NCBI RefSeq assembly: GCF_000003605.2
Contig: NW_003140811.1
Coordinates: 267,505-291,608, forward strand
Length of the DNA stretch: 24,104 nucleotides
Direction of reading: 5' to 3'
DNA from: Saccoglossus kowalevskii
Lineage: Eukaryota > Hemichordata > Enteropneusta > Harrimaniidae
Under the pieces are notes generated by a model, which was not told the origin of the DNA, did no database searches, and saw nothing but the letters and a program-made list of their open reading frames with translations. The translations under genes and the position numbers were made by a program. Below are positions 4,101 through 24,104 of the stretch, piece after piece. Within the stretch, counting starts at the first letter, position 1. The number at the start of each line of letters is the position of its first letter.

Positions 4101-4316
4101 TACAATTGACAATAAAACAAATGCGATTAATTTACTGATATTTACTCTATGGAGCAGCCATCTTGAATTCGGCTCGAAACTAAATAAAGAGACAAGTTGG
4201 GAAACCTTTTTTTCAGATCACTACAAATCAAGAAAAAAACATACTTAACTTTTACAACGATCTACTGGGCAACACTAATGCAATCATAACAACAAACGGC
4301 TTAATTCGTCGTTTTG
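1109..4316. other. Unassigned AT-rich spacer
   Basis: No gene is supported. ORFs of 61-75 codons occur on both strands but lack convincing starts, splice contexts or recognisable motifs. A plus-strand open stretch at about 2752-2904 reads like protein (AFRENKGD, then LLHGGFNTDEENPQF) and lies between in-frame stops. Its possible splice sites are weak, so it is not called. A short direct duplication (TTTCAGTAGTA) lies near 3530-3550. Confidence 0.5.
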
Positions 4317-4955
4317 CAGTTTTGGGACCATGTTTCTGCGTATTAAGGAGCTGATTTTCAAATTACTTTTCTCATTTCGGCAAAATATCCAAAAAGATCT
4401 GAGCGGATTTTGCTCAAATACATTTTAGTTTTAAGGCCATGATTATGCATATTAAGTAGATAATTTGCATATTATCTCATTCAGAAACTTAACGGATTTT
4501 GATCAAATTTTGTACATAACCCTGTGTCAATACGCGGATATGAGTTTTGGAGCCATGTTCGTGCATATTTAGTAGCTAATTTGAATATTATTATCATCTC
4601 TTTTCATCACGTGTTATCACAATCTCAAAAACATAGTACATAGTATCCTGGGGCTAATGTGCATAGGTGATTGGTTTTTTTGGGCCTTGTTCGTGCTTAT
4701 TAAGTAGCTAATTTTAATATTAATTATCTTATTTAAGCCTGTTTAATCAAAATCTCAAAAACTTCTGAGCGGATTTTGAATAAATTTAATACAAAGCTGT
4801 GTTAAGGTAATAAACAAACATGATTAGTTTTGAGACCACATTCGTGCATAAGTAGGTGACTTGCATATTATCTCATTCCATTTTGCAAGTCAAATTTAAA
4901 AACTTCAGAACAAATTTTGTTAAAAATTGCTATATATTGGCGCTGAAACAAAACA
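4317..4955 (+). repeat. Degenerate minisatellite, about five units of 110-150 bp
   Basis: Five diverged tandem copies begin near 4317, 4427, 4543, 4671 and 4825. Each starts with a version of AGTTTTGGGACCATGTTCGT, continues with GCATATTAAGTAGCTAATTT and a TATTATCTCATT-like stretch, and several contain CTGAGCGGATTTTG. Unit length drifts from about 110 to 152 bp because of indels, mainly in the middle. The reading frame is not kept between units, so this is non-coding tandem DNA. The outer boundaries are approximate because the last unit fades out. Confidence 0.8.
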
Positions 4956-5430: not shown

Positions 5431-6868
5431 AGCGTTTTTACTTTTTTTACTAAACAGTGGAGGAATTGAGAAGTGTAACCCAATTACTTTTGAGCATGCT
5501 GTTTAATTTCATTGAGACAATGCATTGTTTGATTGTCGAACACCTGTTTATAGGAGTTGGATTGTGGATAAAAATGGTTAATCGGAAACTACTCAGTGTG
5601 GAGTTTTGAGTAGTATACATCTCGGACATGAAATAATACTAAAACAGAGTCATGCAAAGATCAAAGCTAACAATTGCAGTCTCATTGTTTTTAAAGCTTC
5701 GTTTTTATCATATAGTCTAGTCATTTTATTCAAAAACAGTGGACAACCCACTGTGGAATAGTGCATAATTTGCATAAACCCACGATGACCAGAATATTAT
5801 GGATTAAACATGTCATACACATGCTTTATTTTCATTTCTGGTATGGTCTAGATAATTTATTTTGTAATTACAGTACGCTAATAAACCTTAAGTTCGTGGA
5901 CAATAATGCCATATACCTTCTTTCGTTGAGTAATGCAAAGCTAATTATTATGCAACAAATGACAAGTTATTAAGAGGACGATCTTAACTGATGGCACTAT
6001 TAGTGTTGCATATTAACATGGTATCCTACTTTTTTAATTTATTTTTTAGTTTAATGGTGCTACGCAGTTATCATGTACAAACCCGTGGCTATTAATGACA
6101 ATTTTTCTTTTCTCCCAATGTATCTTGAACATATGCACAGTTTTGTCATTGGGTGTTCTTCTCTGCATGGGATTAATTATAATAATCCACCTATATAGAC
6201 TGGGTAGGTTATGTATATCAAAAGCATTTAAATCCTTACTTAAAAGTTTGAATGTCTGAATCATTTAATCTATAGAACTGAATTGTGCATGATAGCTACT
6301 TTGTAGATTACAGAGACAATTCTGGATTGAAACATAGTGTAAAGGCTAGGTTTTGTGTTTGTCTTGTAATTCAAACACAACTTAAATGTATCAGTATATA
6401 TAGTGCAGCGATATTGTGCTACTAGGGCACACTTGTTGTCAACGCAGCTGTGAAATTCATCATGGGGTTCAATACTAGCTGGTAATTGTAAAATTACAAG
6501 CTTTTAAAATGCTGTTTATATTGCCGCAAATTGTAGATAAATTGTCTGAAATGACAGAATGTGCCAGTGCGGAGGAGCAAAGCCCAAAAATACGTGGCTT
6601 ATTGTCTTTAATGAGGTGTACTATTAGATGAATAGTTGGCTAGAGGTAAGATTTGTCTGAGCCTAGCTGTATCACACATATTTTAAAGGTGGTAAAGGGG
6701 ATAAACCATTGGCTTGTTGAACAAGATACCTTTGTTTATTTTCACAAGTACACATTTCTAAACTTGTTGGCGAGTATAGATCGACAATATTGAGAGTTGA
6801 TGAAAGCTATTCCATAATTTCTCTGAATTAAAATTGGTTGGCTGATATAAAATAATACTTGATTATTG
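5431..6868. other. Unassigned spacer between RT remnant and pseudogene
   Basis: Part of this stretch may be upstream sequence of the minus-strand retrotransposon at 5070-5430, since it lies on the 5' side of that coding fragment, but I could not recognise endonuclease motifs in any frame. ORFs at 5761-5973 (plus) and 6046-6264 (minus) have no family resemblance and are treated as chance. A small palindrome (CAGTGGACAACCCACTG) lies near 5738-5755. Confidence 0.45.
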
Positions 6869-8814
6869 ATGAACTGCAGTCTGCCTTGTGCCAATGTTAC
6901 CCGGTCAGAAAAGTACTACACTTAGGGTCTGATGGAATCAAGAGAGTGAATGAGGCCAGAGGGATAAACAATCACCACAATGCCTGGGCAACAAGTTTTT
7001 CAGGACTGTCGAGAAATATACTGCGACCAACAGAGTGTATACGCATTTAAGTGTAAGTAAGCTTCTGACTTCTCAGGTCCAATACGATCTGGAGGTGAAA
7101 CTTTTGACTACAGCAATAAAACAGACTTATATGATGGGAAAAAGAATTCCTATAAATTGGTACTAGTCTGAAGTTATGACCTCCAGAAAATATTGTTAAA
7201 TGAATGCACAGAAAGAAATGATGATTGGGGCACACAGAGTAAACCTATTATGGGATTTGTCAATGGCCTTCATGTAGCTGATGCTGTCTAATACCAAGAT
7301 TTCAGTGTCAATTTTCTGATGGAAAATTAAATTCATCAAAAATATATTTCTCATGAAGATACTTCTACAAAGCGTGTTAAACACAGTATTTAGTACAAAC
7401 AGAAGCATTCATGATAGTCATTGAGTATTTAGAAAAAAAGCGTAGTTCTCATCAGTTGGGTAGCAACTCTCACTGTTACACCAGATAACTTATTTACAAT
7501 ATGTGGCAGACAATGTTGACCACAACATCCATACCATATATGGCCACAACACTTTCATGGAATGGGAATTATAGGGTCAATACCACCTGGCACTTCTAGC
7601 AGTAGGATCATTCCACAAGTAAATGTCACAGCAGAAGACTTCGCAGCTGTTGGTCGTGTATATATCAAGCATTTGATAGCCTTGGTCTTATTTGATTTGA
7701 TACAGTCAACGCACTATACGAAATTCGAGAACATGATGTTGAGGATCCCACTGCCTATATGCTTATCTGCTGTGAAGTATCTTATTGTCCCTGCAGTAAC
7801 CTTGACCAGCCTTGGCTGGTATGATGCAGTTAGTTCACAAGGGTGATCATTCAGGAAGCTCCTCTGGCTGATTCTTGCCAATGTTAGATATGAATCCGAG
7901 TGACATGACATATCGGTATTCAAAATGGCGTAACACAAACTCTTACATTTTATCAGCTCCTTACTGGAGTGCAGATATGCAAGCAACACAGTAGGTCATA
8001 TGCTGAGTGTAAAAACAATTTCCAGAGCCATACATAGTATACATGTAGATGGAAGACCTGATTGACACTGGCTAGAATACAAGTGAACTTTCTAATAGAG
8101 TATGTTTTGATGAGGAGTATTAGGACTACAGGTGGATCGACATGAGAACGTGGCATAACACAACACAACAGCTTGTGTGGTTGCTGTCTTCCAATGCCTG
8201 GTCAGAGGTGAACTTCGCCATGCAGGATCTGACGAGTGAACGACTGAGACTTCAATGACAAGACAGAAGGACATGGCAGATTCACAGGAGCACTTTACAT
8301 TCCTAGTCTCAAGAATTCCCTTGCACGAGAATACCCAACTGTGCAGTATTGTGACTGGTGTTATGGCTGCTGCCATTATGAATGTTCAGTGTTACAGAAA
8401 TGATGGAAACAAGATACTGAAAATGATAGTTGCCGGAAAAGTATTGCCCAATATACATTTAACACAAAGAACAAGTAACAGCACTGCAGTGTGAATCAGG
8501 AAAAAGGTGATCCATATAGTATAGATCCTCATCTTCTTTTCAGAGATTATGGGCCCTGGGGATATGCAATGATAAACTCGCAGACGTATTTCAATATGCG
8601 CTCTGCCGTTAATCTCTAGAATTCTTTTAGAATAAGTTTACACCTTCTCTGGAAAAATAAAGCTTCCTTGTTATGCGCCTGTACTGCCTGTAGGAGGGTA
8701 TCCAATAGATTCTTGGTGGTGGCACTCATACACAGAATCCCATGGAAGTATGGCACTACATATAATGAGATATGCTAGCGATACATCAGCTATATGACAT
8801 GTCACTTTGTTTAA

Positions 8815-9100
8815 CCAGTCCTTGTGTTTGATTGATATTTATCAGGGCCCAGCACAAAGAACACAACACTGCAACGGAAAGCAGGGCTGTTGGGCCAACT
8901 ATACACTTCAGGGGACATGGTATTCAATATGATATTTTTCTTTTTATCTCCCTGCTTAGTGATAAACCTGAGCATCATGGTTGTCACACAGAACATACTA
9001 GAGCTGGACCCCTAATTGTACAGATTGCTATTGCTAATGCTCAAAGAACAACAAACACTCTTTTCTTGTTGCAGATGAAACAGAAAACTTAAAAGACTCT
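8815..9100 (+). other. PIN/FEN1-like nuclease-type block inside the pseudogene
   Basis: Within the pseudogene the segment LVFD-YLSGPSTKNTT (TGA at 8833 in place of the expected Gly codon) is followed about 130 bases later by LSDKPEHHGCHTEH and LIVQIAIANAQRT. The stretch ADETEN after 9071 corresponds to the place where relatives carry an Asp-Asp-x-Asp-Leu-Leu motif. An Asp near VFD.Y plus a later DxD is the acidic arrangement of PIN/XPG/FEN1-type metal-dependent nucleases. The nuclease assignment is an inference from motif spacing, not a demonstrated activity. In this copy the acidic residues are partly lost, so no activity is expected. Confidence 0.45.
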
Positions 9101-9664
9101 GCTTCCACTCACACCTCACACTAAATACACTCTTTCGACAAGAACTTTGCAATAGCTGAAAAGGGCACCCAGATGTTGGAATATGCTATGCTGAGATCCA
9201 TAATTGGCCCATGCATGCTATTCTTGGGTGCGACACCACTTTCCACATATATGGACTTGGAAAGGGAGTAGCACTAAAAAACTAAAGCTTTACGCACCAA
9301 TCGGGCATTTCGAACAGACAGAAGTGTTTAGAAATCTACACAGCACAAAATATGATGTGATAGCAGCAAGGGAAGATGTCATAGTTACCTTATACAAAGG
9401 TGAACCAGGTGACAAACCTGATTACTTCAGGCTACAAAGCTTCCATTAGAAGATAGGCAGTAGCACATCATGGGTGAAGCCAGAGGCGCTTTCTTCGACT
9501 TCAGCAGCTGCTGAGTTTCACGGCATCCACGTGCATTTGCAAGTAGAGCAGTGGAATGCACCCTGTGGTCATATGACTGGGGTTGGTACAAAAAAGATGG
9601 GATGTACCTGACAGTACTAACAGACATAGAAGCAGCCCCAAAGGAGCTGCTGGATGCAGTGAGG

Positions 9665-9742
9665 TGTCATTACCATACGGTATGTAGCAGCAGATGGTAT
9701 TCCTGCAGGAAGAATGGTCTAGACTGTTCAACTGGATGTGGA
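9665..9742 (+). other. CXC-like cysteine-rich C-terminal motif of the pseudogene
   Basis: The end of the pseudogene reads C-H-Y-H-T-V-C, then a Cys in YSCRKNGLDC, then STGCG, giving Cys spacings of 5, 6, 5 and 3 residues. This resembles the CXC (tesmin/TSO1-type) zinc-binding repeat, C-x-C...C....C-x-C...G..C...C, with two of the usual Cys replaced here by Tyr (CHY and WYSC). CXC domains bind zinc and often DNA. A short polar tail and TAA follow. The match is by pattern only. Confidence 0.45.
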
Positions 9743-9760
9743 AGACGAACTGACACATAA

Positions 9761-10203
9761 AGAATAAGTCAATAACAACCAACTACAGATTACCATCTTA
9801 TAAAATTAACATATTATTGATAAGAAGACATTGACCTTGACATCCAGGTGTATATGCTTGTTGTGAAATGTGAGAGGCATATACAATTTATATGAATACA
9901 AAATAATGTCAAAATTGGAACAATATTGGACAATATAGTCCGTAATATTGTTTCGTCCATCTTGGATTTTAATAGACTTTTTGTTGTGTTTTTTTTTTCT
10001 GAGATGAGTGTAGATAACAAATTCTGTTTCAATTTGTGTTGAGTCATTTCATACATTTACTAGACTAATATAGAGAGATACACTCTTTAAGTCGCTACGA
10101 TAAGTAACCTCTAGTCGACTTCAGTCGCGGAAAATGAAGATGGAAACCATGCCATGTGGCAGTTCATAAATATGTGGGGGAATGTTCACATTGGCATTAA
10201 ATA
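9761..10203. other. 3' flank of pseudogene and spacer
   Basis: No coding signal. No poly(A) tract or obvious target-site duplication directly follows the pseudogene stop, so a LINE-driven retrocopy is not demonstrated. A hairpin lies at 9917-9954. The last 100 bases would be the promoter or 5' leader of the candidate gene beginning at 10204. CATAAATATG near 10166-10177 could serve as a TATA-like element but is not distinctive in AT-rich DNA. Confidence 0.45.
9917..9954. repeat. Hairpin-forming inverted repeat
   Basis: GGAACAATATTGGAC and GTCCGTAATATTGTTTC are inverted copies (one small bulge) around a 6-base AATATA loop, forming a stem of about 14 pairs. It lies about 160 bases past the stop codon of the preceding pseudogene and could be a structured 3' end of that unit or an unrelated palindrome. 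Confidence 0.6.
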
Positions 10204-21421: not shown

Positions 21422-22266
21422 TTCAAAACCCAGACATATTCAAATCTCGCATGATTGTATTGTGAATCATCAGTGTACATTTAAAACACGTGCCACTAAC
21501 TAGGAAGCCAATTATTTTGCAGCATGGAGGTAAAAGACAGTCTGTTACCTCCTTGTCTGTAGCTTTCTGCAACGTCTGCAACAACTGCTACTTACTTCTG
21601 CTTCCAAGTATTTAGATAGTTACACTCATGATAACATATTAACCATGCTGTTAAGAGAATAATTGCGTTCCGAAAGAAAAGCGTTGTGCATGTTGACAAT
21701 GATTACAAGTTGCTAACATTCATTGTTATCAAGGGAGAATCCATTGGCATACTGTTCAACAACTGTTTCCAAATGCATCTGATTCAAGTCAGTCGTGTTC
21801 AGGATACACCAAGTACGGGCTAAGATTTAAGCTAATCTCATATGAGGAATACCCAAACTTGTTAAGGTAGAAGACTACTTATAAATTAAAATATCCAGAA
21901 TTTAGTCATTTTGCAATAAAATTTATTCCAAGGCAATATAAGAATATGGATCTAAAAAAAGGTGGGGGTCAACAGCCTTTTTGTTTGAGAAATTGATGGT
22001 TGTGTTTTAGTGGATAGTGGCTATTTTGACACTATTATAACACTTTTACCACAGGTTCCTATGGCAGAGATATTATGCAATTACATCGCTCTGTAACATA
22101 TTTTCTGTAAGTTACAGTTTCCCACAACTCTTTCGTAGTTTGATTCGCCAAACGATTGTTTTAACGTAAACAAAGGCTGCGGAGCTGTAAATATATGCTT
22201 TACCTGGAAACCAGATGAGTTATTGTGCATCAAACACTACGACATGCAAGTTGGCCGTATTTGTCG

Positions 22267-22275
22267 TGCTGTTCA
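22267..22275. repeat. Left 9-bp target-site duplication
   Basis: TGCTGTTCA directly precedes the left terminal inverted repeat and is identical to 22528-22536 directly after the right one. Joining the two flanks across the element gives continuous retrotransposon leader leading to AAGATGG, as expected for an insertion. Confidence 0.85.
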
Positions 22276-22339
22276 GGCTTAGTCTTTTCCACGAAACGAA
22301 ACGAAACGAAACAAAACGAAACCCAAACCCAAATCCAAA

Positions 22340-22351
22340 CCCTAACCCTAA
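22340..22351. repeat. Telomere-like CCCTAA tract (left arm)
   Basis: Two perfect CCCTAA units follow a graded series of CCCAAA, CCAAAT and CCAAAC variants, suggesting the telomeric hexamer arose inside, or was captured by, the element arm. Its inverted counterpart is at 22449-22466. Confidence 0.8.
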
Positions 22352-22448
22352 CTCGCATTTTTTTTTTCATTGGCCCAATAATATCTGAGAAAATTTCACA
22401 CTGTGAAATACGGACGTGACGATGTTTGAGGTCGTTCAAAATCTAAGG

Positions 22449-22466
22449 TTAGGGTTAGGGTTAGGG
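22449..22466. repeat. Telomere-like TTAGGG tract (right arm)
   Basis: Three perfect TTAGGG units run directly into GTTTCGTTTCG pentamers of the right terminal inverted repeat. The tract is internal to a small transposon, not a chromosome end, because retrotransposon sequence continues on both sides. Confidence 0.85.
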
Positions 22467-22527
22467 TTTCGTTTCGTTTCGTTTCGTTTTATTTTGTTTC
22501 ATTTCGTTTCGTGGAAAAGACTAAGCC

Positions 22528-22536
22528 TGCTGTTCA
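22528..22536. repeat. Right 9-bp target-site duplication
   Basis: TGCTGTTCA is identical to 22267-22275. It is followed by AG and then the ORF1 start codon at 22539, so the insertion lies in the immediate leader of that ORF. Confidence 0.85.
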
Positions 22537-22774: not shown

Positions 22775-23045
22775 AAACAAAGGCCCAAAACTCGCATAAA
22801 ACGGTACTTCGGGATAATTGTTGAGACTCCTCTGAACAGTGCAACATAATTAGCCCTACGTGTGTAACATATATAAATTTGGTTGTTCGGGATTACTTTA
22901 AAGTTGAGTTTGTGTTGTTTCTCGAATTTTTACCGGCTCGACCGGCGTTCCACATCAGCGCGGACAGAGCCCATAGAAATGCATGATACAGTGGTGCACG
23001 TCTTAGCAACGTGGAACGTCTGTGACGTAGGTCCACCCCCGAGGA
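22775..23045. other. Unrecognised 271-bp segment inside LINE ORF1
   Basis: Between the Lys-rich N-terminal part and the coiled coil no frame gives a convincing ORF1 continuation. All frames contain stops, and a minus-strand 61-codon frame is also not recognisable. An 8-bp inverted pair, CGTTCCAC (22946) and GTGGAACG (23011), lies inside, but no flanking duplication was seen. It could be a heavily mutated linker or an inserted sequence. Confidence 0.4.
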
Positions 23046-23687
23046 TTGCATGGATTTAAAACGGAACTGAAAGTACAAATTACAGCACTAGATGATGTGG
23101 TTTGTAAGCTTGCTGAAGAAATGAGAGCCTTGAAATCTGGCGTTGATGACAACCGACAGAAAATAAATGAACTGATTGAGCAAAATAAACAATTGAGTGA
23201 TAAAATTGACACAATGGAAAATGCAGATGATAAAATGAAGGCGCACATGTTACGGAACAATTTAATTTTCCACGGCATTCCACAGAGTGGTTTGGGAACA
23301 GACGGAAGAGTTACTATGTGGATTTATTACTGATAAACTGGATATTGAGGGTTCACAGATAGAATTTCAGATTGTTCACCGTTTAACTTATGCCCGTAGC
23401 CGACCACAACCAATAATAGGCAAGTTTCTTAGGTATAAACAGAGGGATGAAGTTCTACGTGCTGCTGTGAAATTAAAATTAATTCCGTATTCGCGAGGAC
23501 TCCTAAAATCAGAGATCTACGCCGAAAATTAGGTAAATTTGTGGTGGATGCAAGAGCAGAAAGTAAAACAGTTAAAGTTTTATACGATAAAATTAAAATC
23601 GATGACACTGTGTATATTTATGGCGAGGTAATGAAGAACACTAAACCACTGCGTAGCCTGAATTATTCGTCGCCATTGCTACCATAG

Positions 23688-24104
23688 GAAGGAGGTCAAA
23701 GCCCGAGTTTTGACAATGCGTGTGTGCAATTCTTGATTGTAAACTATTTTTTTCTTTGTGCAAAATTCTACATGCATTCACAATAATTGGGGGAGATTTT
23801 AATGGTCGTACGGGTAATAAAAGTGATAGTTTTGATTGTAATGTGAACCACTTACCTATGGGTGATGTGTTTACTACTATTAATGATATTCCACAAAGGG
23901 AATCTATGGATAATGAGTGTAATATATATGGTTATTGGAATTTTGTAAAAGTACCAACTTTAAAATTGTGAATGGAAGACTCTTTAAACAAACAGGGAGT
24001 GGAAATTTTACTTATGTTTCAGGTATAGGCACTAGTGTAGTTGATTATATATTAACAAGCTCAAATAATCTCTCAAATTTTACGGGTTTTTCCATTGGTA
24101 ATAG
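23688..24104 (+). pseudogene. LINE ORF2, APE-type endonuclease remnant (5' half deleted)
   Basis: ORF2 endonuclease nicks target DNA to prime reverse transcription. The frame beginning at about 23720 gives FTIIGGDFNGRTGNKSDSF at 23777. GDFN (23792-23803) holds the Asp and Asn that correspond to the catalytic DxN of APE-family nucleases. SMDNECNIYGYW follows. After a frameshift near 23950 another frame reads FKIVNGRLFKQTGSGNFTYV, then GTSVVDYILTSSNNLSNF and TGFSIGN, up to the window edge. Only about 90 bases separate the ORF1 stop from the FTIIGGDFN block, whereas this family normally has over 100 residues there, including the catalytic Glu, so an internal deletion is inferred. The final SDH motif would lie beyond the window. 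Confidence 0.9.

Follow-up and report, generated by a model that had tools for sequence, protein, structure and literature searches.

The question raised by this stretch of the Saccoglossus kowalevskii genome is what kind of gene left the series of short, interrupted coding blocks that can be read between about 7061 and 9757 of the 24,104-nt window (C3160:267505-291608 within the 572-Mb assembly; the window denotes the whole stretch that was analysed). We found that the blocks belong to a multi-copy DNA transposon family with terminal inverted repeats (TIRs), 3-bp target-site duplications (TSDs) and, enclosed by the TIRs, one long gene. The copy in the window, from which no intact product can be read, is very probably a dead cut-and-paste element, for which the most likely affiliation is with AcademX, a lineage of the Academ superfamily.

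Three-frame translation of the plus strand confirmed the motifs named in the initial annotation, namely GGETFDY, ADNVDHN, VHKGDH, MNPSDMT, TTGG, GPSTK and CRKNGLDC, in consistent order from 7061 to 9757, with stops and frameshifts interrupting the coding blocks across this region. Searching the whole window by tblastn with 19 unmodified open reading frame (ORF) pieces from other genomic copies returned 27 matches at E<=0.05, all of them on the plus strand between 7136 and 9742 and essentially collinear with the order in the family, compared with a mean of 0.58 matches in 60 dinucleotide-preserving shuffles of the window (best E value 5e-12 in the real sequence versus 2.4e-4 in the shuffled ones). 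At least fifteen ordered blocks had originally been counted and held to be beyond chance; the order and its non-random nature stand on both translation and tblastn, whereas the number has to be lowered, as the tblastn matches group by our own count into about 11 distinct blocks. GGETFDY had no match to any family piece, and the first protein match begins downstream of it, at 7136.

The family is spread widely over the genome. A DNA search with window positions 7000-9800 identified four further places besides the window, one of which, a copy near a contig end (C4014), contains an uninterrupted ORF of 830 aa, in agreement with the apparent lack of introns noted for the decayed copy. Used as a genome query, this ORF gave at least 86 matches (54 of 282 candidates scored), and the nuclease-like region of the gene gave at least 72 (100 of 100 candidates scored). 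Merging matches that lie no more than 8 kb apart results in at least 41 loci for the ORF search and at least 65 for both searches combined, all counts being lower bounds and the list of 65 leaving out the window, C1914 and C4084, so that the many copies expected from the initial annotation are indeed present in this genome. The weakest matches to the nuclease-like region have E values of 0.001 to 0.008, and some of the listed matches may therefore be false. Stops are present in many of the family matches, and the four long copies that were measured span about 4.6-6.7 kb.

Similarity among the copies on C4014, C1732 and C3021 stops at one common outer boundary, and at the opposite end of the C1732 copy we found an inverted partner that is 70% identical over 153 bp. 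Four further loci were fetched, in three of which the gene is flanked by inverted repeats (C2261, 78% over 201 bp; C2345; C126), while C2717 has no clear inverted repeats around the gene. With the C4014 TIR as query, 11 matches were obtained in the genome, and C4084 and C3591 represent shorter copies with both ends, of ~2.3 and ~1.8 kb, respectively. AGTC is common at the element ends, mostly within TAGTCC or TAGTCG, the C4014 end reading GAGTCC and one of the C3591 ends TTGTCC. Equal 3-bp flanks, read by eye off the printed element ends, surround six of the seven two-ended elements including the one in the window (C1732 TAA, C2261 TTG, C2345 ATA, C4084 TTA, C3591 TCT, window ATA), the exception being C126 with GTA versus TCA. 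Because of the common boundary, the TIRs and the 3-bp TSDs we consider the family mobile, which bears out the mobility first suggested from the coding blocks; the comparison of copy number and flanks proposed at that time revealed a conserved boundary and target duplications among the copies.

In the window, each strand has a single TAGTC[CTG][AG]G motif, one of them beginning at 5713 and the other having its end at 10067. Such a pair with matching 3-bp flanks was obtained in 7 of 20,000 mononucleotide shuffles (3,000 bp on the left plus 1,500 bp on the right), a number to be read with the motif definition in mind, as T was allowed in it only after, and because, the right end of the window copy had been seen to read TAGTCT. 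Additionally, the C4014 TIR matches window positions 10066-10022 with a score that was reached in none of 2000 mononucleotide shuffles. The element reads TAGTCTAG...CTAGACTA at its ends, with ATA flanking each side, and the alignment between its ends becomes loose past ~10 nt. The extent of 6869-9760 given in the initial annotation was consequently too short (Table 1).

Table 1 Parts of the decayed transposon, in positions of the window
Feature	Position	Strand	Evidence or remark
Whole decayed DNA transposon	5713..10067	+	4,355 bp; motif pair flanking the coding remains, equal 3-bp flanks
Left TSD, ATA	5710..5712	+	Sequence
Left TIR, TAGTCTAGTCATTTTATTC...	5713..5760	+	Strongly decayed past ~10 nt
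Upstream part	6903..7038	+	DNA 74% identical to decayed copy C1914:52099-52235
N-terminal segment, DWGTQSKPIMGFVNGLHVADAV block	7136..7381	+	tblastn, L022 ORF, E 5e-8
Transposase-like core, first part (ADNVDHN, HGMGII, VHKGDH, MNPSDMT)	7488..8032	+	tblastn, L021/L031/L032/L052/L060 ORFs, lowest E 2e-11
Transposase-like core, second part (TTGG, QQLVWLLS, ENTQLCSIVTGV)	8071..8485	+	tblastn, L021/L058/L060 ORFs, E down to 7e-11
Probable XPG/FEN1-like nuclease region (IPWKYGTTYNEIC, GPSTK, ILGCDTTFHIYGLGKGVALK)	8722..9279	+	tblastn, L074/L073/L039/L052 ORFs, E 1e-5 to 2e-4
Cys-rich C-terminal tail	9575..9742	+	tblastn, L059 ORF, E 5e-12
Right TIR	10022..10067	-	45-nt match to the C4014 TIR at 73% identity, right-end orientation
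Right TSD, ATA	10068..10070	+	Sequence

As judged from the sequence, the predicted gene product begins with a Cys/His segment, which is followed by a transposase-like core, then by an XPG/FEN1-like nuclease region and finally by a Cys-rich tail. The core has conserved acidic residues, and its predicted model is poor (mean pLDDT 39.3). Motifs and a weak fold match hint at a nuclease encoded in 8722-9279. The acidic motifs hDGG, hFDG, GDADxxI, GEDTDLL and GCDTTSxxxGxGK follow one another in the order of the FEN enzymes, and for the model of the L074 copy, itself a poor one, Foldseek ranked human GEN1 first; in the VIA-align fold list of this model, XPG/FEN-type nucleases take up 19 of the 50 rows listed, among them ranks 1, 2, 4-7 and 9. 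These nucleases (GEN1, FEN1, XPG, EXO1, ExoIX, T5 FEN) thus lead the fold list, but significant sequence similarity between them and the family was not found. Among 14 A1 members, Pfam gave XPG_I_2 in one (E 0.16) and 5_3_exonuc_N in one (E 0.21), both below the cut-off and outscored by unrelated Pfam families, and the nine places listed in a genome search with XPG_I are all more than 8 kb away from any of the 65 loci. Furthermore, the assignment as a nuclease gained no support from hhalign and Smith-Waterman comparisons, for which the E. coli PolA exonuclease and an XPG exon of the host were used. No scanned piece reached the Pfam cut-off, the core pieces giving no transposase match, and searches of NCBIfam and PDB sequences returned nothing above cut-off or significant. 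The nuclease-like and Cys-rich composition noticed in the initial annotation is supported by the nuclease-like region together with the Cys-rich tail, and the label 'unnamed' holds with respect to Pfam.

With regard to mechanism, the core would be an RNase-H-like DDE transposase, which would bind the inverted ends, excise the element and insert it through a cut with a stagger of 3 bp. During excision or insertion, the XPG/FEN1-like part might trim flaps or cut one strand, and DNA or partner proteins might be bound by the Cys-rich tail as well as by the Cys/His segment at the N terminus. The copy in the window would have been inserted at an ATA site and would later have decayed through frameshifts, stops and deletions.

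Many copies over many contigs and a nuclease-like part might equally be found in a host gene family, e.g., one related to defence, that was spread by ordinary duplication and left a pseudogene in the window, but the common boundary, the inverted ends and the differing 3-bp target duplications in unlike flanks argue strongly against this reading, to which we give hardly any credence; for the defence-related gene considered in the initial annotation no evidence in favour was obtained. Just as implausible is an origin as a processed pseudogene, from a retroelement or from a virus, since the remains seen are indeed without introns, yet TIRs with 3-bp TSDs are present, no scanned piece matched a Pfam reverse transcriptase or integrase, and no relative was detected in IMG/VR by three protein queries (the 830-aa ORF plus two pieces of the window) or two degenerate motifs. 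The TIR and TSD data led us to set aside all of these origins, be it host gene family, defence gene, retrocopy or virus. One window piece had no match in phages, and 17 window pieces had no tblastn match at E<=0.01 in candidate loci L001-L012; at E<=1, window pieces matched L001-L009 only in the motif itself and in scattered short stretches. The single bacterial match of a GTDB pattern scan (L010) was rejected, as no similarity at E<=0.01 was seen.

A closer alternative is a TIR DNA transposon with 3-bp TSDs and a nuclease-like domain that belongs to a superfamily other than Academ, perhaps an unnamed one. The TIRs and 3-bp TSDs are seen, yet the link to Academ is made by description and not by sequence, and no scanned core piece matched a Pfam transposase; on the other hand, AcademX is described in PMC10045372 with just this combination, an encoded nuclease and TSDs of 3 or 4 bp, and we regard this alternative as unlikely. 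It appears distinctly improbable that the family forms a separate unnamed superfamily outside Academ, in which a new type of transposase, fused to an XPG-like nuclease doing part of the strand cutting, would carry out cut-and-paste transposition in animals. For the AcademX reading that we prefer, the novelty is likely small, as the window would contain the dead remains of a transposon type already known, the protein of which was missed by the Pfam copy used.

Several other repeats and open frames were observed around the transposon and its relatives. To its left, a 33-46-nt unit recurs four to five times in 4315-4928 at a spacing of 109-151 nt, and 441-568 represents a dispersed repeat that shares 78-85% identity over 81-95 nt with parts of C4014 and C1732 lying outside the transposon. 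Positions 21930-22073 are 92% identical over 144 nt to C1732 (L023 6276-6418), ~1 kb outside the family copy, probably an unrelated short repeat. An inverted repeat at 22274-22529 with ~50-nt arms (GTTTC repeats) surrounds a TTAGGG-like tract and constitutes an interstitial telomere-like repeat. Inspection by eye further revealed ORF pieces at 23031-23971 that resemble the coiled coil of a LINE/L1-type ORF1 and, with IIGGDFNGRTGNKSDSF, an endonuclease-like motif, as well as endonuclease-like ORFs adjoining the family copies at L058 and L061. An open frame of 713 aa adjoins the C1914 copy (L025 3921-6059); by eye, it contains an internal tandem repeat of three units, and its end is rich in Cys and His and similar to a MYND finger.

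Overall, ends and target duplications identify a protein family that is unrecognised by the Pfam copy used as a mobile element. Gene models with blocks of this family are thus probably transposon proteins, which should be masked rather than included in host-gene counts. The family also raises the mechanistic question of what a flap-type nuclease does in cut-and-paste transposition with a 3-bp stagger, to the answer of which a decayed copy adds nothing.

Among the known systems, the comparison centres on the Academ superfamily, the proteins of which carry an XPG nuclease and Cys-rich fingers. The superfamily and its lineages are reportedly to be credited to Kapitonov & Jurka 2010 and Kojima 2020, the latter on AcademH. 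According to PMC10045372, TSDs are 3 or 4 bp long in AcademX and 9 or 10 bp in AcademH, a difference seemingly tied to the encoded nuclease and helicase, respectively, while Zator has TSDs of 3 bp and Harbinger/ISL2EU none to 4 bp. Harbinger/ISL2EU and Zator, as described there, resemble the family in their short target duplications, but the family pieces tested had no Pfam transposase match. AcademH, for which the same source gives the long TSDs and a helicase, differs from the family in that the TSDs found here are 3 bp, and among the scanned family pieces no Pfam helicase match was obtained. Academ elements are reported as amplified in bivalves in PMC10294476, where the curated ones average 5,565 bp, a length within the range of about 4.6-6.7 kb of the long copies here. 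With AcademX, compared by features and not by sequence, no difference was seen: TIRs are present in C1732, in three of the four further loci and at the window ends 5713 and 10067, the TSDs are of 3 bp in six of seven elements, and a putative nuclease region is present. The initial view that the family is undescribed is therefore probably wrong, and because the TIRs, the 3-bp TSDs and the probable nuclease fit the published AcademX lineage (PMC10045372), we place the family beside AcademX, by description, as an AcademX-type transposon.
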